A stretch of 64,000 nt of DNA from Mucilaginibacter agri. GTDB lineage: Bacteria; Bacteroidota; Bacteroidia; Sphingobacteriales; Sphingobacteriaceae. The notes under the pieces were generated by a model. It saw only the letters and a list, made by a program, of their open reading frames with translations. It did not search any database and was not told the DNA's origin. Shown in pieces: positions 17,279-29,952 of this stretch. The translations under genes were made by a program, and so were the position numbers. Position 1 is the stretch's first letter; each line of letters begins with the position of its first letter. The DNA lies in NCBI RefSeq assembly GCF_009928685.1, contig NZ_WWEO01000042.1, forward strand, positions 62,001 to 126,000. The letters run 5' to 3'.

Positions 17279-17295
17279 TCTATGGAAATAGTATA
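17279..17295. promoter_or_regulatory. Shared 17-bp motif, copy A (S10 promoter)
   Basis: TCTATGGAAATAGTATA, preceded by AAA. It matches copies at 26609-26625 and 29238-29254 (consensus about TCTATRGAMWTAGTAKA, a TCTA-N9-TAGA imperfect inverted repeat). It lies five bases upstream of the TTTG -33 element of the promoter before the S10 leader, a position typical for an activator. The binding protein is unknown; the Rrf2 protein at 29500 is the nearest candidate. Confidence 0.55.
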
Positions 17296-17331: not shown

Positions 17332-17368
17332 CATATATATGCTTTTTAAAGGTATCAAAAACGATTTA

Positions 17369-17416
17369 ATGCGAATGCCGCTTGCTAAAGCGGCGATGTG
17401 TTGCTGCTGTTCTTAA
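17369..17416 (+). CDS. Polycysteine leader peptide before the S10 carboxypeptidase
   Basis: A 15-codon ORF encoding MRMPLAKAAMCCCCS. The four Cys codons (TGT TGC TGC TGT, 17399-17410) stand just before the stop. An in-frame ATG at 17339 would extend it to 25 codons. It begins about 30 bases after the predicted transcription start and ends 61 bases before the S10 start. Inverted repeats flank the Cys codons: GCCGCTT (17377) pairs with AAGCGGC (17388), and AAAGCGG (17387) can instead pair with CCGCTTT (17432), which can also pair with GCGG at 17424. This is the layout of an attenuator, in which ribosome stalling at Cys codons decides between alternative hairpins. Function is inferred; polycysteine attenuator uORFs are known from mycobacteria. 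Confidence 0.6.
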   Translation: MRMPLAKAAMCCCCS

Positions 17417-17477: not shown

Positions 17478-18938
17478 ATGCCACTTCCTCGTAAACGTTT
17501 TACATCTATTTTATACCCGAACGCCAGTATTTTTGCAGTTTTTGTATTACTGCTGTTTAGCTCATGGGCAAAAATACCCAGCCACATACCATTGCATGAT
17601 TTAACAGAGTCATTGGCTTTCAAAAAGGCAGTTGGATTACACTCGCTTAGGTTAGATGGTGCTGTGGTGAACTATCAGTCAACAGCGGGCTATGTGAATG
17701 TTGAAGATAGCCAACATCGTAAAGCTCAAATTTTTTACACAGATTATCTTGTACGAAGAGCAAACAGGCCTGTTACATTCGTTTTTAACGGCGGCCCCGG
17801 CTCCTCATCTATTTGGCTCCATATGGGGTCTTTTGGCCCGGTTAGGGCAGTTCCAGGAAAAAATGGCTATCAAAATAATCCTAATACCTGGCTAGGCTTT
17901 ACAGATCTGGTTTTTATTGATCCTGTGGGCACGGGGTTTAGTCGCGCTTCTAATAGTGCAGATGAAAAGTGTTTTTATGGTTATCAGGAAGACGTTGAGA
18001 TAATTGGACAGTTTATTAAAAAATACCTGACTGATAACAACAGGCAGAATAGCCCTTTATTCCTGGCGGGCGAAAGTTATGGTGCGGCCAGAGCAGTAGG
18101 GCTAACGGCCTACATAAGAACCGCTTTTAAAATTCCGGTTAAGGGATTAACGCTTATATCGCCGGCGCTGAATTACAAATTAGTTACTTTCCGTAAAAGG
18201 AATGATGCGCCTTACCCTTATTATTTGCCTACCTATGCAGCAACCGCTCAGTATCACAATCAATTAACACCCGAGTTACAGCAAATTACGCCTGAACAAC
18301 TGAGTAAAAAGGTGACTGCATTTGCATTTGGCACTTATCGCAACGCCTTAACGGGCCTCAATGTGCTACCTGCAAATGTTATCGATACGCTGAGCTACTT
18401 TACGGGGATAGACACTGGTACATTGCGCCGTTTAAACGGGCGTGTTACAGATGTTCAGTTCAGTCGCTTAATACTTAAGAAAAAAGGTGAAGTAACCGGA
18501 ACTTACGACAGCCGAGCAACGGGAAAAGCGTCTGCCGTGGCCGATCCCAGCGAAGTTGCTTTGCGTGCTGTTTTCCCGCAGGCTTTTCAGCAATACCAGC
18601 AAAACGAATTACATTATAAGACCCCGTTAGCCTACCTTGCAACAATAGCAACACCAAATTGGAACTATGGGCCGGCGAAAGCAGCGGGTGGTTATCTGGA
18701 TGTTGTGCCGGTTTTAAGAAAACTGTTAAGCGGCGATACTGATCTTAAAGTACATATTGTAAGTGGCGACTATGACCTTGCAACGCCATCATCCACTGTC
18801 AATCTATATGCAAATCAAATAAGGAGCCATAGCGTTTCTGTACACCGTTATTTATCCGGACATATGCTTTACACGGATAGCCAGGCCAATGCAAAATGGT
18901 ATGAGGATACCAAGGGTTTTTATCAAATGGCGTTGTAA
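17478..18938 (+). CDS. Serine carboxypeptidase, peptidase family S10
   Basis: A 486-residue exported protein with a hydrophobic N-terminal segment. FNGGPGSSSIW near residue 105 is the S10 oxyanion/substrate block, GESYGAAR carries the catalytic Ser200, SGDYDLATPS near 433 the Asp, and SGHMLYTD near 457 the His. S10 enzymes remove C-terminal residues from peptides at acid pH. It is transcribed alone behind a polycysteine leader and faces the SusCD-M14 operon across a shared terminator. With an M14 carboxypeptidase nearby, it probably trims peptides in the periplasm, inferred here to serve sulfur or cysteine supply. Confidence 0.9.
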   Translation: MPLPRKRFTSILYPNASIFAVFVLLLFSSWAKIPSHIPLHDLTESLAFKKAVGLHSLRLDGAVVNYQSTAGYVNVEDSQHRKAQIFYTDYLVRRANRPVTFVFNGGPGSSSIWLHMGSFGPVRAVPGKNGYQNNPNTWLGFTDLVFIDPVGTGFSRASNSADEKCFYGYQEDVEIIGQFIKKYLTDNNRQNSPLFLAGESYGAARAVGLTAYIRTAFKIPVKGLTLISPALNYKLVTFRKRNDAPYPYYLPTYAATAQYHNQLTPELQQITPEQLSKKVTAFAFGTYRNALTGLNVLPANVIDTLSYFTGIDTGTLRRLNGRVTDVQFSRLILKKKGEVTGTYDSRATGKASAVADPSEVALRAVFPQAFQQYQQNELHYKTPLAYLATIATPNWNYGPAKAAGGYLDVVPVLRKLLSGDTDLKVHIVSGDYDLATPSSTVNLYANQIRSHSVSVHRYLSGHMLYTDSQANAKWYEDTKGFYQMAL

Positions 18939-19153: not shown

Positions 19154-21910
19154 TTACTGTTCTTCTTCTTGTTGAGCACCGGCTCTGCCACCCGAAAGGT
19201 TAGCAAAGAATAATGAGTTCAGGAATATCCTGCCTGTACCTAACCAATAACCGCGATAGGTGGGGTCATCGGCAAACAAAACTACTTTCCCCCGGCCACT
19301 GCTGGCCAGAATAATAGCCGCAGAATTGGCCACACTGCTAACACTTTCTTTTGGTGCATAGCCGTTAACAAAAGGCTTTGCATTGTAAAGTGCCACTGTG
19401 CTATAGCGGTTTGCACTTTGCTGCAGAATAGTCGCCCCATTTTTATTGATAAACAACTTACGGGTAGTTATACCGAATGCAAGAGGATTAGTAATATCCA
19501 GATCTGCCTGGAAAATAGCGCCATTGATCCGTTTAGAACCTTCCACTTCTTCCTGACGGTTATAATCCAGCCTGCTGCCATTACCACGCCTGCGAGGTGC
19601 TGCATTATTGGCTATCGCGCTGCTGTCGCGCTGGCCACCTGTAGCAGGTTTACCGTTTGCGGCTGCTGGTCTGCGTGCCGGCGTTTCGGTGGCTTCTCCA
19701 GAAGTTGTCGGCGCGGCTGTTACTTGTGCCGTCGGAGCATTACCTCCGTCGCGACCGCTAAATGCCGCCGGTGCAACTTTTTCGTTTGAAATGCCATGCT
19801 CTATAGCCCATGAACTTGCGGCCTGAAACGTTATAAGCGTACCTCCGTCATTAACCCAGTCTTTGATCTTGTCGACAGTGGCCTTGTCCCAGGCATTATA
19901 GACGCCCCCAGGAAGAATCAGTACCGTATAACGGCTCAGGTCAGCTCGTTGGAAACTTGATGGGTCGATCTTGGATACCGGTAAATCAAGCTGCTGATTA
20001 AGCAAAAACCAAACCTGGCCTGCTTCAGAAGAAGTCACACCCTGGCCAAAGGCTAGTGCCACTTCAGGTTTTTTGATTGCGCGGATATTGCTGCTGCCTA
20101 AGTCGATACCCTCGAGGCTATACCCTGTGCCTACCGCTGTGAAGTTTAGATGCGTATCAGCTGCAACATCTTGCAGGGCTTTGTATAAGGAGTCTGGCGA
20201 AATGGTTTGCCCTTCTACCGGGATTACCAATGAACCACTGCCGTAACTGCGCTTCCCAGCTGCTGTATTGGCGGTAAATGGTTTAAAGGCTGCACGAACA
20301 ATAACCTGCTTTGTTAACAGATGATACAACGCACGGCTCGCATTATAGTCTGTATAATTGAGTAAGTAAGCCAGGGTAGACCTTCCACCTTCTACTGTAC
20401 CTTTAGGAACATTAGTGCTGCTTACAATATTGCCTTTAACTACCGGAGTTGTTAACCTTGCATATTTTAGCCCATAAGCATGGATAATACTCCAGCCGGT
20501 GTTATCGTAATATATACTATCAGTAAGCGCATTTTCTTCGAATATAGAATGCACGATGAGGTAGTTTGGCTGATCCGACGGCACGATATAAGCTTTGTCC
20601 TTTTGGAATGTTTTGCCTTCCTGGCTTAGATTGTCATTCAGAGCATATACTTTAATACGATGCTCTAACAGCAGCCCAAGGAATTTCTGTGTAAGGTTCA
20701 CATCCTTTGCATCGCCAAACACATAGCCCTTGGTTGGGCTTTTTTGCCCTTGTTCTAAAGCGTATTTAAAAAAGTCTTTTTGTGTTTTAAACAAGCCAGC
20801 TTTCTCTGCAACGGATGCTCTTATAGTAGAGAAACTTGTGGTTAGGTGATTACGGATACTGAATGCAAACGTAAGCGGGATGCCGTTTGCCGATTCCTGT
20901 ACAATACCCCGCGAGCTTGCCTGTTCATATGTAGCAGCTACCGCGCCATAGAATTTAGGGTAAGTGGAACCATAGATTGGCGAAAGGTTATCGTAACCTT
21001 CCTTAGTGAAATAAAGTGAGCCGATATCATCAAGCGCCTGTGCATTGTATTTAGCCAATACTATACCTTCATCATATAGAAATTGTGGAATAATAGGACT
21101 GTAATGGCTTTTGGGAGTAGGTTCGAAATAATAGGTAGCGTTGGTGCCCTGCTCATGGAAATCAATCTGAACGTTTGGATACCACTGGTGAAAAAACTCC
21201 ACGCGGTTGCGGCTTTCTAACTGTACCAGGTTTAGCCAATCGCGGTTAAGATCGGTGTAATAGTGGTTGGTGCGCCCCGCAGGCCAAGCTTCCTGGTGCT
21301 CTTTGTCGATAGGATCTGCCACCGGTGGGTTAGAGTGGAAAGCGTTATGCCAATTCGCTGCGCGATCACGCCCATCGGGATTAAGGGAAGGGTCGATAAA
21401 GATCACTGCTTCTTTCAACCATTTTAAAGTTTCGGGATCATTGCTGGCTGCGAGGTAATAACCTGTAAGTAAGCTTACTTCGGTGCTCGAAGTCTCATTG
21501 CCGTGTACACCATACCCAAGATCAATAATAACCGGGGCACTGCTGCTGATGGCTGGTTTAGCCGGATCAATCTGATTAAGGTGTTCCTGTCTGATCTGTT
21601 CCAGGCGGCTATAGTTCTCAGGTGAGGTTGCCGTAACGATAATTTGTTCGCGGTTCTCATAAGTGTGACCGATAACTTGTACATGGATGCGGTTGCTTAC
21701 CCGTGCCAGTTCGCGAAAGTAAGCCACTACCTGATCGTGCCGGGTGTAAAATGAGCCGATGGGGTAACCCAGGAACTTTTCGGGTGAAGGGATACTGCTA
21801 TCAAGTGTGGCCCCGGTTTTAGGGAAATAATAACTGGTTTGCGCTGATGCCAGTTGCAGGGAGATAACCAGTGCCGTTAGTGCACTGGTTATTTTACGGA
21901 TTGTTTTCAT
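19154..21910 (-). CDS. Zinc carboxypeptidase, peptidase family M14, secreted
   Basis: A 918-residue protein starting at the ATG at 21910 (MKTIRK, signal peptide ending ASAQ). A 17-codon upstream extension lacks signal-peptide character and overlaps the SusD stop, so I reject it. The M14 zinc ligands are visible as HGNE (His136, Glu139) and His252 in QIDFHEQG; NPDGRDR near 177 and LNRDW near 221 are the substrate-binding Asn/Arg blocks. The C-terminal part has a glutamine-amidotransferase-like segment (LPGGVYNAWDKATVDKIKDW) and a low-complexity stretch rich in Ala, Thr, Pro and Arg near 730-790. It is the last gene of the SusC-SusD-M14 operon, so it probably processes peptides handled by that uptake system. 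Confidence 0.88.
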   Translation of the reverse strand: MKTIRKITSALTALVISLQLASAQTSYYFPKTGATLDSSIPSPEKFLGYPIGSFYTRHDQVVAYFRELARVSNRIHVQVIGHTYENREQIIVTATSPENYSRLEQIRQEHLNQIDPAKPAISSSAPVIIDLGYGVHGNETSSTEVSLLTGYYLAASNDPETLKWLKEAVIFIDPSLNPDGRDRAANWHNAFHSNPPVADPIDKEHQEAWPAGRTNHYYTDLNRDWLNLVQLESRNRVEFFHQWYPNVQIDFHEQGTNATYYFEPTPKSHYSPIIPQFLYDEGIVLAKYNAQALDDIGSLYFTKEGYDNLSPIYGSTYPKFYGAVAATYEQASSRGIVQESANGIPLTFAFSIRNHLTTSFSTIRASVAEKAGLFKTQKDFFKYALEQGQKSPTKGYVFGDAKDVNLTQKFLGLLLEHRIKVYALNDNLSQEGKTFQKDKAYIVPSDQPNYLIVHSIFEENALTDSIYYDNTGWSIIHAYGLKYARLTTPVVKGNIVSSTNVPKGTVEGGRSTLAYLLNYTDYNASRALYHLLTKQVIVRAAFKPFTANTAAGKRSYGSGSLVIPVEGQTISPDSLYKALQDVAADTHLNFTAVGTGYSLEGIDLGSSNIRAIKKPEVALAFGQGVTSSEAGQVWFLLNQQLDLPVSKIDPSSFQRADLSRYTVLILPGGVYNAWDKATVDKIKDWVNDGGTLITFQAASSWAIEHGISNEKVAPAAFSGRDGGNAPTAQVTAAPTTSGEATETPARRPAAANGKPATGGQRDSSAIANNAAPRRRGNGSRLDYNRQEEVEGSKRINGAIFQADLDITNPLAFGITTRKLFINKNGATILQQSANRYSTVALYNAKPFVNGYAPKESVSSVANSAAIILASSGRGKVVLFADDPTYRGYWLGTGRIFLNSLFFANLSGGRAGAQQEEEQ

Positions 21911-21935
21911 TGAATATTGATTTTCAGAATGTGAG

Positions 21936-23279
21936 TTAGTAGCCTGGGTTTTGGGTAACATCCGGATCTGATTGGATATCCGACAACGGAATAGGGAATA
22001 AATAGCGATTAGGGTTAGTGATGCCTAAAACCACCCCGGCTCGTCCGGTTCGCACCAAATCGAACCAGCGGTGTGCCTCAAAGGCAAATTCAACACTGTT
22101 TTCATCTTCTATTGCCTGCAGCAGGTCGGCCTGTGTGGTTGCTGTAGTTGGCGCCAGGCCTGCACGATCGCGAATAATGTTAAGATCTGATGCCGCGCTA
22201 TTGGCACCGGTAAGCTTACCCTGTTGGGCACGGGCCTCGGCACGGATAAGGTAGAGTTCAGCTATTCGGATAACATACGACGGATCTGTACTGGTAGCTA
22301 CGGTGTTATACAAAACACCATAAACACTTGGGCTGGTGCCGGCTATAAGTGCGTTGCGCGAGCCGCCGATAAGTGGATTGTTTAGTTTAGCCACAATACC
22401 ATCTGATGGCTTCAGTGTAAACGACCCACCCGAAGAGCTTGGGTACCAGCTGCTCCAGTACCCGTTCTTATCATTAGCCGAGAAAGTAAGTTCAAATACG
22501 GATTCGGTAGTAAGGAAAGGAGACGCAAAGAATGATTTGTAAGGTTTAACCAGGGCATACTTGGTGTTTGCAATTACCTGTGTTGCGTATGCTTCAGCGT
22601 CTGCCCATTGTTTGCGGTACAGGTGCAGACGCGCGCGCAGAGCACGTGCAGTGCTTTTTTGCGCACGGTTACGGGTAGTGGCATCTTCGGGTAGTAACTG
22701 CTCGGCTTGGGTAAGATCGGCCAATACCTGATCGTAAGTTTGATCGAGGGTGCTTCGCTTTATACCTTTTAATCCGTTTAGGTCGGTGGTTGGTTTCAAC
22801 TGCAATTGTACACCGCCCCAGCCACGTGCCAAATCGAAATAGGAGAGCGCACGGATAAAGTATGCTTCGCCCAAAATTTTCGTCTTTTCAGCGGAGGTAA
22901 GCAAAGGGTCATTTACCGCCGGTACATAGGCAATAACACTATTAGCAGAATTTATGGCCCGATAGATGCCCTGGTAGGTTGCAACGGTAATTACGTTATC
23001 TGTCGGTATAGCGTCCTGGTCCAACTGTAGGTATTCGCTTAACGTACCGTTGAAAATTACATTATCGGCAGTGATGGTCCCCAGCGTTGGGTAGTTGGCC
23101 GCGTAATAACTTTGAATGCGATCATAAGCTCCAATTATCGCCGCACGTGCTGTGCCCGCATCTACAATGGCGTCCTCGGTTGCAATGGCATTATTGGGCT
23201 TCTCGTCCAGGTATTTTTTGCAGGATACTGATGCCGAAAGTATGATCAGTAATAAGCTATATAGATATATCTTTTTCAT
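21936..23279 (-). CDS. SusD/RagB-family outer-membrane lipoprotein
   Basis: A 447-residue lipoprotein: SASVSC puts the lipidated Cys at residue 20. KKYLDEKP after it, AEAYFIRALSYFDLARGWGGVQL near 137 (TPR region) and the C-terminal EFAFEAHRWFDLVRTGRA and YLFPIPLSDIQSDP are classical SusD features. SusD caps the SusC barrel and binds the ligand on the cell surface. It lies eight bases after SusC. The neighbouring peptidases suggest a peptide or oligopeptide-like ligand rather than a glycan, which is inference. Confidence 0.95.
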   Translation of the reverse strand: MKKIYLYSLLLIILSASVSCKKYLDEKPNNAIATEDAIVDAGTARAAIIGAYDRIQSYYAANYPTLGTITADNVIFNGTLSEYLQLDQDAIPTDNVITVATYQGIYRAINSANSVIAYVPAVNDPLLTSAEKTKILGEAYFIRALSYFDLARGWGGVQLQLKPTTDLNGLKGIKRSTLDQTYDQVLADLTQAEQLLPEDATTRNRAQKSTARALRARLHLYRKQWADAEAYATQVIANTKYALVKPYKSFFASPFLTTESVFELTFSANDKNGYWSSWYPSSSGGSFTLKPSDGIVAKLNNPLIGGSRNALIAGTSPSVYGVLYNTVATSTDPSYVIRIAELYLIRAEARAQQGKLTGANSAASDLNIIRDRAGLAPTTATTQADLLQAIEDENSVEFAFEAHRWFDLVRTGRAGVVLGITNPNRYLFPIPLSDIQSDPDVTQNPGY

Positions 23280-23287
23280 GGCTTTAA

Positions 23288-26200
23288 TTATAAGGTTACG
23301 TTAACACCTACTTGAATGGTACGTGGTTGAGGCACTGTGGCCCAATCGTACCCCGCGGTATTCTGATTGGCACTTTGTGAACTTACTTCCGGGTCCAGGC
23401 CATCGTAGTGGGTAAAGGTGAGCAGGTTGGTTGCTTGCAGGTAAATTCTCGCCCGGCTTACGTCAATACTTTTAGTTAGGGCCGATGGGAGAGTATAACC
23501 GAACGTGAGTGTTTTAAGGCGTATAAATGAACCGTCTTGCAGGTAGCGACTACTTAAGCTCGCCACATTACCGCCATAGTTATTTGCCGAACCGCCATTT
23601 TGGTCTGGATTGCCGCTATAGGTGGTCATTCTTGGGATGTCGGTAACCTGTCCCGGTGTTGTCCAACGGTCTAGCTGGCGAGGTACAAAACCGATGTTTG
23701 CTTGTGTACCGCCATGGATCATAAAGAAATCGTTCATGTTCATGATCTTATTACCCTGCTGGAAATAGAAGAAGAAGTTGAGATCGAAATTTTTATAATT
23801 CAGATTATTAGTAAACCCACCTGTAAACTTCGGCAACGCGTTACCCACAATCTGCCTGTCAGCCGAAGTGATCTTGCCGTCTTTGTTTACATCGTCATAA
23901 ATGGCATTACCTGTTTGTGGGTCTACAGACAATTGCTTGTAAAGCCAGAATGAGTTAACAGGATAACCCTGGCGTAGGAGGGAAATATTACGGCCCGAAG
24001 CACCTTGTGCAATATCCGAAGCCAGTTTTTCAATCTTATTAGTATTAAATGAGATGTTAAAATCAGTGGTCCATTTAAAGCTGGTTGTGTTAATGTTTAA
24101 AGAGTGTATGGCAGCTTCAAATCCTTTGTTCCGTACCGCACCATAATTTTGCAGGTAGCTGGCGAAGCCGGAACGGTAGGGCACAGGTACATTCAGCAAA
24201 AGGTCATAGGTATATTTATTATAGTAGTCGAAGTTAATGGTCAGCCTCCTTTTAAGAATGGTAAACTCGGTACCGATATCTATTTGTCTGGTAGTTTCCC
24301 AGGTTAGGTCGGGATTAGCCAATTGCGAAGGCGCTGTACCAGCATTCTCCAGGTAGTTGGCACCGGACGACCACAGGCCTAAGGCTGCATAGGAACCAAT
24401 GCCGTTTTGGTTACCAGATAAACCAATGCTTCCGCGAAATTTCAACTCATCAAAAAAGTTGAGTTTCTTGATAAAATCCTCCTGACCGGCGCGCCAGGCA
24501 ATACCGCCGGATGGAAAATAACCCCATTGCTTGTTTTTGCCGAATTTTGACGAAGCGTCTGCACGTATACTACCGTCGATAATATATTTATCGTCATAAG
24601 CGTAGCTTGCTTTGCCAAAAAACGATACCAGCTTAGAGGTTTGCTGAGTTGAAGTGCCAGAGCGGGTAGCTGCCGAGCTTACGGAAGTTAGGCTGTTGGT
24701 GGCAAACCCGGTGCCGCTGCTGCCCGTAGAATTATTGGTGACAGTATTCAGGGTATTGCCTATCAGGGCATTAATATTATGCCTGTTGTCCCGGCCGAAA
24801 GATTTGATATAGGTTAAAACCTGTTCATTAGTGTAAACATAGTTTTGGGTGATAGACGATGTAGCAGAGCCGTTTGTTGCGATACCTGCGCTGATGAGCG
24901 TATTGGCATAGCTGTTATAATTTTCGGTTTCGCCGTCTATGCTCCAGCTGCTTCGTAATTTTAAGTTTGGCGTAAAAGAATATTCGCCAAATAAATTGCC
25001 AATGGTGCGCCAACCGATACTGGTATTATCAAGATTATTGATTAGCGCCAGGTGGTTGTCGAAACTGCCATACCGGGCGTAGGTTCCATCAGCGTTATAA
25101 ACGGGCAGATACGAGCGCACAAATAGAGCAGAGTTGATAACGCCCTGGGGGTTGTTGTCGCTACCACTCAAGTTGCGGTCAGACCGGCTGATGTTAATGC
25201 TGGTACCAACTTTTAATTTGCTGGTTATGTTATTATCGTAATTAAGACGGCCTGTATAACGTTTATAGTTAGATGGCTTAATAATAGACTCTTGATTTAG
25301 GTATCCCAGCGCTACATAATAATCGCTGTTTTCGGTACCGCCTTGCGTAGAAAGATCATAGCTCTGTGAGCGTGCAACTTTGAATAGATCATCCGTACGA
25401 TCGTAAGTAGGTTGAGAAGCCGGATCAGCGATCAACCCGGTAGGAGCGGTGTTATTTTCTGCCGCGGTATTGATCTTAGCCTCATTTGCAAGCAACGCTG
25501 TTTGGGGGCCGTCGGTAACCTCAAACTTTTTAATTGCCGAAGACCAGCCCTGGTACGTATTAAAGTTGATCTTTCCTTTTGTATTGCGCTTGCCGCGTTT
25601 GGTGGTTACAATAATAACACCATTAGCCCCTAATGATCCGTAGATGGCTGTAGCATTAGCATCTTTTAACACTTGTATGCTTTCGATGTCGTTCACATTC
25701 AAATCGGCAATTGGGTTGGAGCCGGATTGGTTACCAAATGACGTAACCGGGTCGTTATTGCTTAGAAAAACACCATCGACGATATAAAGCGGGTCTACCG
25801 AAGCATTAATAGAGTTGTTACCACGTACGCGGAAAGTAATACCTCCGCCCGGAACGCCAGAATTGGTGAGCACTTGCACACCGGTAGCTTTACCCTGTAG
25901 TAATTGGTTAAACCCGGCTGCTGGCTGGTCTTTTATCACATCACCGCTTACACTGGTGATAGAACCTGCAATGTATTTGCGTTCCTGAGTACTGTAACCC
26001 GTAATTACCACATCATTTAACTGGCTGATATTTTCTTTAAGCAGCACATCTATCGGGCTGCCAGTTGCCACAACTTCTTGGGTAAGGTAGCCGGTATAGC
26101 TTACCACAATGGTGTAGGGGAGTGCCTGGCCGGTAACCAGGGTAAATTTCCCCTCATTGTCGGTCGAAACGCCGTTGGTAACCCCTTTAATGCGGATTAC

Positions 26201-26347
26201 CGCACCGGGAAGGGGCTGTTTATTTGCTGCGTCGAGTATGCGGCCGGATAGCCTCGACTTGATAGTAGGTTGTGTTTGTGCCCACGTTAACTGAGTTACG
26301 GTTAGGCACAGAAAGAGTAACGCACTTATTTTGTAAATGTGCTTCAT
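23288..26347 (-). CDS. SusC/RagA-family TonB-dependent transporter
   Basis: A 1019-residue outer-membrane transporter. Start is the ATG at 26347 (MKHIYKIS, signal peptide ending TWAQ); an earlier start lacks signal-peptide character. A CarboxypepD_reg-like domain follows (ILDAANKQPLPGAVIRIKG, near 40), then DVVITGYSTQ and the plug (LLQGKATGVQV, FRVRGNNSINASVDPLYIVDGV, ATAIYGSLGANGVIIVTTKRG). The rest is beta-barrel with a C-terminal aromatic-rich end. It is the first structural gene of an operon with SusD and M14 and is preceded by a polycysteine leader ORF. Confidence 0.95.
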   Translation of the reverse strand: MKHIYKISALLFLCLTVTQLTWAQTQPTIKSRLSGRILDAANKQPLPGAVIRIKGVTNGVSTDNEGKFTLVTGQALPYTIVVSYTGYLTQEVVATGSPIDVLLKENISQLNDVVITGYSTQERKYIAGSITSVSGDVIKDQPAAGFNQLLQGKATGVQVLTNSGVPGGGITFRVRGNNSINASVDPLYIVDGVFLSNNDPVTSFGNQSGSNPIADLNVNDIESIQVLKDANATAIYGSLGANGVIIVTTKRGKRNTKGKINFNTYQGWSSAIKKFEVTDGPQTALLANEAKINTAAENNTAPTGLIADPASQPTYDRTDDLFKVARSQSYDLSTQGGTENSDYYVALGYLNQESIIKPSNYKRYTGRLNYDNNITSKLKVGTSINISRSDRNLSGSDNNPQGVINSALFVRSYLPVYNADGTYARYGSFDNHLALINNLDNTSIGWRTIGNLFGEYSFTPNLKLRSSWSIDGETENYNSYANTLISAGIATNGSATSSITQNYVYTNEQVLTYIKSFGRDNRHNINALIGNTLNTVTNNSTGSSGTGFATNSLTSVSSAATRSGTSTQQTSKLVSFFGKASYAYDDKYIIDGSIRADASSKFGKNKQWGYFPSGGIAWRAGQEDFIKKLNFFDELKFRGSIGLSGNQNGIGSYAALGLWSSGANYLENAGTAPSQLANPDLTWETTRQIDIGTEFTILKRRLTINFDYYNKYTYDLLLNVPVPYRSGFASYLQNYGAVRNKGFEAAIHSLNINTTSFKWTTDFNISFNTNKIEKLASDIAQGASGRNISLLRQGYPVNSFWLYKQLSVDPQTGNAIYDDVNKDGKITSADRQIVGNALPKFTGGFTNNLNYKNFDLNFFFYFQQGNKIMNMNDFFMIHGGTQANIGFVPRQLDRWTTPGQVTDIPRMTTYSGNPDQNGGSANNYGGNVASLSSRYLQDGSFIRLKTLTFGYTLPSALTKSIDVSRARIYLQATNLLTFTHYDGLDPEVSSQSANQNTAGYDWATVPQPRTIQVGVNVTL

Positions 26348-26430
26348 GACATTAAGTTTTGATTTTGAGCAATACAAATGCTTGCCGCGGAGCAGCTACA
26401 TTTTTAAATTTTGAGCAAATTGAGGGAGTT

Positions 26431-26449
26431 GTTATCCGTTAGATAACGG
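26431..26449 (-). promoter_or_regulatory. Overlapping inverted repeats after the SusC leader ORF
   Basis: Two mutually exclusive inverted repeats overlap here: GTTATC-N5-GATAAC (26431-26447) and CCGTTA-N2-TAACGG (26436-26449). On the - strand they begin six bases after the stop codon of the polycysteine leader and lie before SusC. Overlapping alternatives fit a leader-controlled switch, but neither is followed by a T-run, so intrinsic termination is not obvious. Confidence 0.4.
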
Positions 26450-26454
26450 GGAGA

Positions 26455-26589
26455 TCAACAACAGCAGTTGTTGCACATGACGGCAGGAATGCTTTTGTAT
26501 AAAGAAGTAGTAAGTGCAGAATTAAGTCGTAAAAGACTCTGATTTCCCTGTCGGGAAATACGATAGAGCGAAAGTTGTTTCGGGTTCAT
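26455..26589 (-). CDS. Polycysteine leader peptide before SusC
   Basis: A 44-codon ORF on the SusC strand, from the ATG at 26589 (MNPKQLSLYR) and ending SIPAVMCNNCCC. Four of the last six codons are Cys (TGC, then TGC TGT TGT), directly before TGA. It ends 107 bases before the SusC start. A 7-bp hairpin (ATTTCCC, loop, GGGAAAT, 26542-26559) lies inside the ORF, and overlapping inverted repeats follow the stop. The ending resembles the S10 leader (AAMCCCCS). The reading frame is open further upstream to 26727, but the ATG at 26589 lies just downstream of the shared motif copy B and is preferred. A regulatory peptide that reports cysteine-tRNA supply is the best explanation. Confidence 0.6.
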   Translation of the reverse strand: MNPKQLSLYRISRQGNQSLLRLNSALTTSLYKSIPAVMCNNCCC

Positions 26590-26597
26590 TTTGATAA

Positions 26598-26629
26598 TGT
26601 ATATAAAATCTATAGAAATAGTAGACAAA
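26598..26629 (-). promoter_or_regulatory. Shared 17-bp motif, copy B, with possible SusC promoter
   Basis: TCTATAGAAATAGTAGA at 26609-26625 (written on the + strand) matches copies A and C. On the - strand a TTTG at 26629-26626 and a partial -7 element TATATACA at 26605-26598 are 20 bases apart and enclose the motif, so a repressor bound here would block the promoter. The -7 match is poor, so the promoter part is tentative; the motif itself is clear. Confidence 0.5.
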
Positions 26630-26773: not shown

Positions 26774-27805
26774 TCAAACACTAATTTTGGCATCTATGAT
26801 TGTCTCTGCAAAGCGTTCCATTTCTTCTAATTGAGGGCTGCATTGCAGCAGAAAGAAATCGACGCCCGCTTTTTCAAATTCGGCCACACGGTCTTGCACC
26901 TGCCACGGCGTGCCGGTTAAACCAGAACGCAAGCCACGGTTGGACACCGAATAATCATATAAAGATACCTGCTGCTCTAACTGCGTACCGGATAACCATT
27001 GCTGATAATTCTTGTATCCCGAGCTGCCTTCCTTAACATTAGTTATGCGTTCGATCTCGTGTTTTACTTCCTGTTCCGAATTGCGAATGATGCTGTAAGC
27101 CGCTACACCATACTTCATAGGAGGCAAACCTTTTTTATCACGTCTCTCGCGCATGTCGGCAATACGCTTTCCAATCAGTTCGGGCGAATCGCCGTGCATA
27201 ACATAGCCATCACAGGTAGAAGAGATCAAGTCTTTAGCGGCTTCAGATTCTCCCCCGGCGTATATAGGTGGGCGAGGATCGGAAACTGGTTTGGGTTGCA
27301 GCACATTATCTTTTACCTGGTAATATTTTCCTTCAAAATTAAAGTGATCCTGTTTCCATAAATGATCTACAATATTAAGCCACTCTGCTGTACGTGCATA
27401 ACGGTCGTCGTGTTGTTCAAAAGCTATCCCGTATTTCTCCGCTTCGTCCTTCCACCAGGAAGATACTACGTTTAGTGAAAGTCTACCTCCACTAATGTGA
27501 TCGATATTTGCAGCCTGCTTAGCGAGCTGAGCAGGGTTATGGAATGTGGGCCTTACGGCTACCATCAACTCCTGCTTTTCTGTAACGGCGGCCAGCGCCG
27601 CAGCTGTCGACCATGCATCAAGCGAGTCAACCTCCTCACCTTTAATATCATTTAGGTATAATTCTGCAATTAGCGCCAGGTCAAAGCCGATTTGTTCGCT
27701 TTTAACGGCCAATTTTTTTACGTAATCCCAGGTTGGCTGCATTTGTTCGTCGTCAACGTTGCGCAGCCAGCCGCCAAATACAGGCAGCCAATAGCCATAT
27801 CTCAT
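26774..27805 (-). CDS. LLM-class flavin-dependent monooxygenase, SsuD/SfnG-like
   Basis: A 343-residue cytosolic bacterial-luciferase-like protein. Its N-terminus (GYWLPVFGGWLRN), AVRPTFHNPAQLAKQAANIDHISGGRLSLNVVSSWW near residue 83, DDRYARTAEWL near 132 and YAGGESEAAKDL near 182 match the alkanesulfonate and dimethylsulfone monooxygenase branch. These enzymes use reduced FMN and oxygen to cleave C-S bonds and release sulfite. No flavin reductase or ABC sulfonate importer is encoded nearby. It is the last gene of a three-gene operon with an ATP-grasp ligase and a small unknown protein. The exact substrate is uncertain. Confidence 0.82.
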   Translation of the reverse strand: MRYGYWLPVFGGWLRNVDDEQMQPTWDYVKKLAVKSEQIGFDLALIAELYLNDIKGEEVDSLDAWSTAAALAAVTEKQELMVAVRPTFHNPAQLAKQAANIDHISGGRLSLNVVSSWWKDEAEKYGIAFEQHDDRYARTAEWLNIVDHLWKQDHFNFEGKYYQVKDNVLQPKPVSDPRPPIYAGGESEAAKDLISSTCDGYVMHGDSPELIGKRIADMRERRDKKGLPPMKYGVAAYSIIRNSEQEVKHEIERITNVKEGSSGYKNYQQWLSGTQLEQQVSLYDYSVSNRGLRSGLTGTPWQVQDRVAEFEKAGVDFFLLQCSPQLEEMERFAETIIDAKISV

Positions 27806-27814
27806 AGGTAAAAA

Positions 27815-28795
27815 TTAAAAGGTTAAAGATTCATTTTTGGTGAGTTGTGTTGCCAACTGTTGTTCTATAAAATCTACCAGTTTCTCGTGCGGATTAAAGC
27901 CAATCACATTTACTGCGTCGGCAACGAAATTGGATAGCGCGTTTACATCATAGAACAATATTTCCCCATCGCGGTCGTCTATGATGTATTCAATACCGCC
28001 CACATCAATTTTGCTGTGTTGCATAATGGTTTCAATTTGATCAATAACCTCTTGTGGCGGTGTATAAGCCTCCACCCTGAGGCCATTCTTAGGGGCATCA
28101 ACCGCGCAGGCGTTTCGTACCAGTTCTGTTCCTGCAGTAGTCTGGCAGATGTCGGCAGGGCAAAGGTTAAAGCTTTCACCATTGGTGTAAACACGGATAG
28201 CATATAGGTATTTACCGCCGAGTGTTTCTACCCTGGTTATATACCCGCCTCGCGATGGAATAAACTCCTGAACCAGCGCTGTATGATCGATGCCCAAATC
28301 GATTTGATTATTGCCGATCGCCTCGCGAACTTCCTCTATCGAATCGAACTTCTCGATACCGGCTCCGCTGCCTCCAATATTGGCTTTAACTACTATCGGA
28401 AAACGCAGTCCCTTTTTTGCTTCTTCGATCTGCGAAACATGGTTAATTACACTGGCTTTAGGGTATTTGATACCCAATTTTTGTAGTAATTGCAGCTGAA
28501 GAGCTTTGGAGGTCTCGTAGGTGAAGGCTTGGTATCCGTTCAACACCTTTACGCCCTGATCTTCTAAATGTTTAAGATAGTTAAGGGTATAGAAGGTGCC
28601 CTGTACGCCATCCCGCAAATAGGCTGACGGGCTCATCCTGTTAAAGAAGACACTGAATTCAGGTCTCGGTTCGTCGATCCGATAGTTATGTTGTGTTGGA
28701 TTTACCGTTTCAAAAGGTATGCTCCGTTTTTCGAGTTCTGTAAAAAGAGGCTTGAACCAATCCGGGTGCTCATGTGATATAACAAGTGGATTCAT
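27815..28795 (-). CDS. ATP-grasp ligase, RimK/glutathione-synthase-like
   Basis: A 326-residue cytosolic protein. PIVVKANIGGSGAGIEKF near residue 133 is the ATP-grasp glycine-rich loop with its Lys, LVQEFIPSRGGYITRVETL near 170 the adenine/ribose region, and VGGIEYIIDDRDGEILFYDVNALSNF near 265 the metal-binding Glu/Asn block. The fold makes amide bonds from a carboxylate and an amine with ATP. Substrate is unknown. It lies nine bases before the flavin monooxygenase. Place in a putative sulfur operon suggests a sulfur-containing amino acid or peptide, but sequence does not show this. Confidence 0.78.
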   Translation of the reverse strand: MNPLVISHEHPDWFKPLFTELEKRSIPFETVNPTQHNYRIDEPRPEFSVFFNRMSPSAYLRDGVQGTFYTLNYLKHLEDQGVKVLNGYQAFTYETSKALQLQLLQKLGIKYPKASVINHVSQIEEAKKGLRFPIVVKANIGGSGAGIEKFDSIEEVREAIGNNQIDLGIDHTALVQEFIPSRGGYITRVETLGGKYLYAIRVYTNGESFNLCPADICQTTAGTELVRNACAVDAPKNGLRVEAYTPPQEVIDQIETIMQHSKIDVGGIEYIIDDRDGEILFYDVNALSNFVADAVNVIGFNPHEKLVDFIEQQLATQLTKNESLTF

Positions 28796-29213: not shown

Positions 29214-29269
29214 CAAATCTATATAAATTATATAAAATCTATAGACTTAGTAGAATAAATTTATATTTG
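29214..29269. promoter_or_regulatory. Divergent promoter region with shared motif copy C
   Basis: Copy C, TCTATAGACTTAGTAGA, lies at 29238-29254. A -7 element for the + strand (TATATTTG, 29262-29269) and one for the - strand (TAGATTTG, 29221-29214) flank it. The place of both -33 elements is covered by the motif and neither has TTTG, which suggests that the motif-binding protein controls both promoters. The + promoter serves the Rrf2 gene, the - promoter the small-protein/ATP-grasp/monooxygenase operon. Confidence 0.6.
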
Positions 29270-29499: not shown

Positions 29500-29952
29500 A
29501 TGTTGTCAAAGAAAGCTAAGTATGTTATCAAAACGTTGATCCTGCTTGGCAAGCAAGCAGAGGGTGTGCTTTTATTAGGCTCACAGATTGCTGAAATGGA
29601 GAATATCCCTAAAAAGTCCTTGGAAAGTATTTTAGTGGAATTGAAAAAAGCCGGTTATATATTTAGTAAAAAGGGTACTGGTGGGGGATATCTTCTCGCT
29701 AAACCCCTAACAGAAATTTTTTTGATTGATGTGGTGCGCTTCGCCGACGGCCCCATTGCGCAGGTCTCGTGCGCCAGTGCGTTTCATTACCGTCGTTGTG
29801 AAGAGTGTTCGGTTGAAGAAACCTGTAGTATCAGGGACCTCTACCTCGAAATTTGGGCTGCAGACGTCAAAATTTTATCCAGTACCAGTATTGCTGATAT
29901 GATTAAAAAAGAGGTAAGCCTGTCGAAAAAAATGGAGCTTGTTTTAAGTTGA
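29500..29952 (+). CDS. Rrf2-family transcriptional regulator with cysteine cluster
   Basis: A 150-residue regulator. The N-terminal winged helix ends in KKGTGGGYLLAKP (residues 57-69), the family's wing. Four cysteines (91, 100, 103, 109) in VSCASAFHYRRCEECSVEETC are placed like the cluster ligands or thiol sensors of IscR/NsrR-type proteins. Family members control iron-sulfur, nitric oxide or cysteine metabolism (CymR). It stands beside the monooxygenase operon and downstream of motif copy C. I infer that it is the regulator of the three motif sites and may sense iron-sulfur status or a thiol; this is not shown directly. Confidence 0.88.
   Translation: MLSKKAKYVIKTLILLGKQAEGVLLLGSQIAEMENIPKKSLESILVELKKAGYIFSKKGTGGGYLLAKPLTEIFLIDVVRFADGPIAQVSCASAFHYRRCEECSVEETCSIRDLYLEIWAADVKILSSTSIADMIKKEVSLSKKMELVLS

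Follow-up and report, generated by a model that had tools for sequence, protein, structure and literature searches.

A conserved polycysteine leader ORF, probably cysteine-sensing, upstream of SusC in Mucilaginibacter

A short open reading frame (ORF) that ends in a run of cysteine codons lies just upstream of a SusC-SusD-M14 transporter-peptidase unit in Mucilaginibacter agri, is retained upstream of SusC in its relatives, and shares a 17-bp near-palindromic, operator-like motif (TCTACTANNTCTATAGA) with other genes of the same genome, several of sulphur type and one encoding a tRNA-Cys. The most likely reading is that the ORF encodes a leader peptide that senses cysteinyl-tRNA within a sulphur-limitation regulon, in the manner of the mycobacterial polycysteine attenuators but in Bacteroidota. 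The sequence analysed (the window) is a stretch of 64,000 nucleotides, in which the relevant features are as follows.

26455..26589 (-): 44-codon leader ORF ending MCNNCCC-stop
26609..26625 (-): 17-bp near-palindromic operator-like motif TCTACTATTTCTATAGA, matching 15 of 15 scored positions and ending 19 nt before the leader ATG
26599..26629 (-): inferred promoter, with TTTG (26629-26626) and TATATAC (26605-26599) around the operator
26456..26473 (-): hairpin between the Asn codons and the last Cys codons (CAACAAC/GTTGTTG)
26428..26462 (-): alternative pairing of the last Cys codons (26457-26462) with AACAAC (26428-26433), which excludes the GTTATC/GATAAC hairpin (26431-26447)
23288..26347 (-): SusC (TonB-dependent receptor with plug)
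21936..23279 (-): SusD
19154..21961 (-): M14 zinc carboxypeptidase-like protein
17279..17295 (strand not assigned): operator-like motif before the S10 leader (TATACTATTTCCATAGA on the - strand)
17339..17416 (+): 25-codon S10 leader ending MCCCCS-stop
17376..17395 (+): hairpin just before the ATG-Cys stretch of the S10 leader, with covariation among relatives
17478..18938 (+): S10 serine carboxypeptidase-like protein
29238..29254 (strand not assigned): operator-like motif between the Rrf2 gene and the divergent 109aa/ATP-grasp/monooxygenase operon, with no Cys leader found on either side
29500..29952 (+): Rrf2-family regulator, candidate binder of the operator (inferred from position)
26774..27805 (-): luciferase-like monooxygenase, with best NCBIfam scores to dimethylsulfone and alkanesulfonate monooxygenases, all below their cut-offs
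27815..28795 (-): ATP-grasp (RimK-like) protein

The observation made in the preliminary description, that a 44-codon polycysteine ORF lies 107 bases before the transporter gene and resembles a second leader before S10, is confirmed. The ORF starts with the ATG at 26589, reads MNPKQLSLYRISRQGNQSLLRLNSALTTSLYKSIPAVMCNNCCC-stop and ends 107 bases before the SusC ATG at 26347; the S10 leader (MLFKGIKNDLMRMPLAKAAMCCCCS) ends 61 bases before its gene. The motif said to be common to the two promoters is indeed shared, TCTACTATTTCTATAGA and TATACTATTTCCATAGA being identical at 15 of 17 positions; relative to its gene it lies one way round before SusC and the other way round before S10, as expected of a near-palindrome. 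By contrast, two details required correction. A hairpin had been placed before the Cys codons of both leaders; this holds for the S10 leader, where it lies just before the MCCCC stretch, but in the SusC leader the hairpin is made with the Cys codons, CAACAAC (mainly the Asn codons) pairing with GTTGTTG (the last two Cys codons into the stop), and GTTGTT can instead pair with AACAAC 23 nt downstream. That these pairings compete in the cell is inferred, and the folded regions are only moderately more stable than shuffled sequences (z = -2.0 for the SusC leader region, 7 of 200 shuffles being as good, and z = -2.7 for the S10 leader region, 2 of 200). Furthermore, the two transcription units had been called unrelated, which is wrong: S10 and SusC-SusD-M14 are convergent neighbours here and in two genomes of relatives (G030 and G046).

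The proposal that both leaders reflect a shared cysteine-sensing control is supported by comparison with relatives, and a condition that had been set in advance as capable of overturning it, a lack of conserved Cys codons at orthologous loci, was examined and did not apply. A scan of named genomes with SusC gave 46 loci (numbered here with an L): 30 orthologues at 54-79% identity (L145-L174; from Mucilaginibacter, Pedobacter, Hufsiella, Ferruginibacter, Deminuibacter, Flavisolibacter, Puia, Chryseolinea and metagenome genomes) and 16 more distant relatives (25-43% identity; L188 and L190 only in part), which served as controls. Two orthologues (L170 and L171) have no upstream sequence. Of the other 28, 25 have an ATG ORF of at least 8 codons with at least 2 Cys among its last 9 codons, and 16 have at least 3, whereas dinucleotide shuffles give means of 2.3 and 0.19, the antisense strand gives 3 and 1, and the 16 controls give 1 and 0; the conservation in the orthologues is thus beyond chance. 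The exceptions are L153 (one Cys), L159 (a run CCCC that is not at the stop) and L163 (no Cys). Of the 25 leaders, 22 are 35-49 codons long and end 91-125 nt before SusC, whereas those of L165, L167 and L174 are shorter and differently placed. Several Pedobacter-type leaders (L150, L151, L152, L154, L156, L162, L172 and L173) end in a variant CC..CxSxG rather than a plain Cys run, for example CCCLFCNSIGC, CPMCKSTGC and CATCMCDSNGK.

Within Mucilaginibacter, 28 of 30 SusC loci, the best-scoring of the hits in 103 of 149 genomes, show a Cys-ended ORF upstream (at L058 it ends MLCCCCL); of the remaining two, L063 has 144 nt of upstream sequence, and L054 is a broken copy read from its middle, whose true upstream end (L292) does show a leader. 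For S10, 16 of 30 loci show such an ORF, several as MRMPxxxxVMCCCC, and 14, on average the more distant, do not. Apart from its Cys end the peptide is poorly conserved: a tblastn search of 149 genomes with the whole leader returned only its own copy as a strong match (E = 3.3e-25), the next being at 0.037, and although 56 of 149 genomes match at E up to 1, all but the own one are weak, and few of the weak loci inspected looked like leaders, so orthologues were compared by position instead. The Cys codons are TGT or TGC and vary in spacing and number, so residue identity rather than RNA sequence is kept, which is what selection on Cys identity at the end of a leader would leave.

The consensus TCTACTANNTCTATAGA was read from these promoters; a strict palindrome, TCTACTANNNTAGTAGA, was considered initially but fitted few sites, and the asymmetric TCTACTANNTCTATAGA fitted better. 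Scored on 15 positions in a 200-nt stretch, 11 or more are matched in 16 of 16 S10 leaders, 22 of 28 SusC orthologues and 0 of 16 controls, and in 5-9% of shuffles. As the consensus was derived partly from the same loci, the S10 and the more distant SusC loci are the fairer test. Measured from the first in-frame ATG, the motif ends 9-56 nt upstream in 38 of 39 genus leaders (in the other, L086, a far-upstream ATG misplaces the stretch searched). In the 8 SusC loci of clade 1 it lies between a TTTG and a TATA-like element, as in promoters of Bacteroidetes; that these elements are the promoter is inferred. The first in-frame ATG lies 11-19 nt after the motif in 8 of 8 clade-1 SusC loci and 7-11 nt after a TAnnTTTG box in 7 of 16 S10 loci, but 21-28 nt after such a box in 13 of 15 clade-2 loci; with transcription start sites not mapped, these distances do not settle whether the ORFs are leaderless, as in the mycobacterial form. 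The motif patterns alone are not enriched genome-wide (20 sites against 16 for the control, and 84 against 103 when two mismatches were allowed), so only sites with a leader or telling gene context were used.

In the M. agri genome, such sites comprise the two window leaders, the space between the Rrf2 gene and the divergent monooxygenase operon, and three further units. One is a TonB receptor (L116, L257) with its own polycysteine leader (...ICLNGCCCC), whose convergent neighbours are CysN and CysD, both above NCBIfam subfamily cut-offs. In another (L120, L258; contig C17, 314000-323000) the motif is followed by an Rfam-matched SAM riboswitch, a NifS-like cysteine desulfurase (best model NifS, 391.9 against a cut-off of 530.75) and a peroxiredoxin. 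In the third (contig C12, 160716-161078; L256:716-1078; L109), the motif, a leader ending ...LLPGGCCCC and, about 150 nt later, a tRNA-Cys(GCA) gene (C12:161006) lie in a row; no ATG ORF of 20 codons or more begins between this leader and about 500 nt past the tRNA, where the opposite strand carries a 283-codon frame. Two motif-marked units, L113 and L120, have no Cys leader. A scan of the genome for CCC-stop gave 71 hits; leaving out one at a contig edge and merging repeats with identical flanks, 70 distinct sites were examined, of which 60 lie inside long frames, and of the 10 intergenic sites exactly 3 have the motif within 330 nt upstream, namely those before SusC, tRNA-Cys and the TonB receptor. 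The S10 leader ends CCCCS and so falls outside that scan. A separate Cys-run pattern gave 10 hits against 1 in the control, but only the two window leaders withstood inspection; a hit before a gene that looks TldD-like (L013) overlaps another frame and was discarded.

Genomes of the genus carry, besides a housekeeping tRNA-Cys behind a gene that resembles an RNA methylase on inspection, further tRNA-Cys genes (at least one match in 145 of 149 genomes, 1-5 each). In the stretches read, these lie at the ends of such units as M14-tRNA-Cys, S10-tRNA-Cys, SusC-SusD-sulfatase-sulfatase-x-tRNA-Cys (one genome; L293), NifS-like-thioredoxin-like-tRNA-Cys and SusD-tRNA-Cys, or directly behind a Cys leader; families were checked for 10 proteins and the rest were named by inspection. 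Among the named SusC orthologues, ARAGORN finds a tRNA-Cys, or in L145 a tRNA of unread type, behind M14 in 4 loci (L145, L146, L160 and L169), whereas none follows M14 in the window. Of 45 tRNA-Cys sequences from 41 stretches (L289-L328 and L109), 29 have the motif (12 or more of 15) and 22 a Cys tail upstream in the same unit, 33 having either; several have the motif but no Cys tail. This was not a random sample, some stretches having been chosen because they lay near SusC or S10 and several being cut before the promoter; one row (L310_4174) was assigned to the other copy on its stretch, and L306 is a housekeeping copy. Of 18 housekeeping copies, one of which (L283) has almost no upstream sequence, 0 had the motif (13 or more) within 800 nt upstream and 2 had a Cys tail at -529.

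In 35 of the 45 sequences, the acceptor stem pairs at 7 of 7 positions only if one A in the 3' strand is left out, with matching changes on both sides of it (GGTG/CACC, GGCG/CGCC, GGTA/TACC) and U73; three others (L304, L307 and L320) have bulged acceptors of other kinds. The role of these supernumerary tRNAs is not known. A copy that looks bulged, with the motif 179 nt upstream, was also seen in another genus of the family (L335). The bulged tRNA-Cys resembles the minor selC* tRNA-Cys (Mukai et al. 2017, as reviewed in PMC7609411) in U73, the GCA anticodon in many and one unpaired adenosine, but it is not selC*: here the extra A is in the 3' strand of the acceptor stem, with a 5-bp T-stem and a short variable region, whereas selC* has a modified 8/4 branch with the bulge at 51a and a longer variable arm.

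Evidence on RNA structure is mixed. In the S10 leader, the hairpin before the Cys stretch covaries: 86.8% of cells are paired, against 31-65% when the pairing is slid; covariation is 0.335 against 0.166 (0 of 500 shuffles as high) and cells with double change number 15 against 7.1 (1 of 500). Two of the five measures are weak (pairs with double change 5 against 3.5, 66 of 500 shuffles as high; pair types 13 against 10.5, 35 of 500), and the sequences are related, for which such shuffles do not allow. The alternative pairings of the window's SusC leader are not conserved among orthologues, and RNAalifold finds little common structure in ten of them, so that, although mutually exclusive hairpins are present in the window, conservation of such a switch among relatives is neither established nor excluded. 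A simple scan did not find intrinsic terminators consistently between leader and gene (5 of 26 spaces against 2.0 in shuffles, maximum 5; 22 orthologues with a leader plus four own-genome leaders, none of the latter having one), which speaks against a plain trp-type attenuator. No Rfam model matched a Cys-leader region at gathering threshold in the window or in 12 loci with a leader, the matches seen being tRNAs and the SAM riboswitch of L120, so no T-box or other known riboswitch was detected there. A different structured element occurs between leader and SusC in the second SusC clade: in an alignment of 15 loci (from L057 to L075) no Rfam match was found at gathering threshold in the five scanned, and 15 of 15 sequences show a hairpin ACCGGCAAGG...CCTTGCCGGT followed by a covarying stem around the near-invariant TAACGCCAATCACT.

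Taken together, we consider it likely that the terminal Cys codons sense cysteinyl-tRNA. In this view, under cysteine or sulphur limitation an Rrf2-type regulator would release (or activate) the promoter through the 17-bp operator, and the ribosome would translate the leader from a start codon near the 5' end of the transcript. With Cys-tRNA scarce it would stall on the Cys codons, change their pairing with neighbouring RNA and let expression run on into SusC-SusD-M14, a system that would scavenge a sulphur source (peptide or organosulphur compound); with Cys-tRNA plentiful the ribosome would finish and downstream expression would be cut. The comparisons establish the ORF, its Cys end, the motif and the sulphur character of other marked genes, whereas translation, stalling, the identity of the operator's regulator and the substrate are inferences; no expression, ribosome or 5'-end data were examined, and neither the response to cysteine nor binding of the operator was assayed. 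Whether the regulated genes belong to cysteine and sulphur metabolism is likewise not settled by the tRNA-Cys gene and the TonB receptor beside cysDN in the M. agri genome and the sulfatase and NifS-like units in relatives, since for SusC-SusD-M14 itself the link is only by association. The ATP-grasp and monooxygenase genes accompany SusC-SusD-M14 or SusC-SusD in 13 of 30 orthologous loci, which argues, by inference, for an organosulphur substrate.

The downstream step may be premature termination of transcription, perhaps Rho-dependent, which is favoured because one such leader stands directly before a tRNA-Cys gene with no plausible ORF after it; this is an inference, and Rho dependence, which would fit both this unit and the lack of consistent intrinsic terminators, was not tested. 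A variant in which the leader senses Cys-tRNA but acts on translation initiation of SusC (translational attenuation or reinitiation) is not exclusive of this reading and is possible, although less likely. It would suit the terminator result and the placement of 22 of 25 leader ends 91-125 nt before SusC, and regulation of cysteine genes in Mycobacterium smegmatis has been called translation attenuation (PMC13236596), but the leader-tRNA-Cys unit offers no obvious translation start to control and speaks for an effect on transcription or RNA fate.

Two further alternatives appear unlikely. The Cys-rich nascent peptide might be a metal or redox sensor (copper, zinc or Fe-S), as for Cys-motif regulatory peptides in Proteobacteria, stalling or releasing the ribosome by binding a metal rather than through Cys-tRNA supply. 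CxxC, CCCC and CMCMC ends could bind metal, in several Pedobacter leaders the Cys sit as CxxC, Rrf2 relatives often carry Fe-S clusters and the window's Rrf2 protein has several Cys close together. However, the arrangement of Cys is not fixed (CNNCCC, CCCC, MCMCMC, SGCC, HCCC), whereas a metal site would need a fixed one, and the marked genes that could be named are for sulphur and tRNA-Cys, none being for metal uptake or efflux. Slightly less likely still is that the Rrf2-type operator does all the regulation and the ORF is a small functional or incidental Cys-rich peptide. The motif-marked units without a Cys leader or tail would fit this, but the Cys end is kept while the body drifts, with 22 of the 25 leaders of similar length (35-49 codons), whereas a free peptide would be expected to keep more than its last residues, and leaders precede genes as unlike as SusC, S10, tRNA-Cys, an AhpC/TSA-like gene and, on inspection, a NifS-like gene.

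The closest described case is that of the polycysteine leaderless short ORFs of mycobacteria (Canestrari et al. 2020, Mol Microbiol; cited in PMC13236596), which place a Cys-codon run in a short ORF upstream of sulphur genes; in part of the present units the start codon lies close to the inferred promoter, although start sites were not mapped. The present leaders occur in another phylum, precede other targets (SusC/TonB transporters, a peptidase, tRNA-Cys) and are paired with a conserved 17-bp motif; of five leaders compared with NCBIfam none reached a cut-off, the only listing being a weak chance match of one (E = 0.07, 13.1 bits against 35). The trp/his-type attenuators share regulatory codons in a leader peptide and possible alternative RNA pairings, but differ in that no consistent intrinsic terminator was found here. 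As with the Rrf2-family sulphur and Fe-S regulators CymR and IscR, an Rrf2 gene lies next to the shared motif, and Rrf2 genes also occur near such units in L301, L169 and, on inspection, L318; the window's protein exceeds the Rrf2 superfamily cut-off (94.2 against 73.3) but is far below those of CymR (53.4 against 195) and IscR (49.8 against 207.55), and the motif is not one associated with either. Leader-peptide attenuation clues before amino-acid operons are reported in Flavobacterium psychrophilum (PMC9723704), without cysteine leaders being named in the parts consulted, and no report of polycysteine leaders in Bacteroidota was found in searches limited to the openly licensed PubMed Central literature. 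If correct, the present reading would extend cysteine-codon attenuation from mycobacteria to another phylum, and to outer-membrane transporters and a tRNA gene, and would give a way to find sulphur-scavenging SusC/SusD systems by sequence alone; the leader-tRNA-Cys unit gives a clean test of whether such leaders act on transcription.

A more far-reaching possibility, which is tentative and somewhat less likely than not, is that Mucilaginibacter, and in part other Bacteroidota, run a sulphur-limitation regulon built of three parts: a 17-bp Rrf2-type operator, polycysteine leaders, and dedicated minor tRNA-Cys genes with a bulged acceptor stem that are transcribed inside the very operons the leaders control. 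The minor tRNA-Cys would then feed back on the leaders or serve a role outside normal translation, so that the sensor's own ligand would be a product of the regulon. In one further genome of the set (G037; L349), a leader ending MVMCCCCCC lies at -1123 relative to a tRNA-Cys that looks bulged, before a gene that resembles a PhyH-like oxygenase on inspection.
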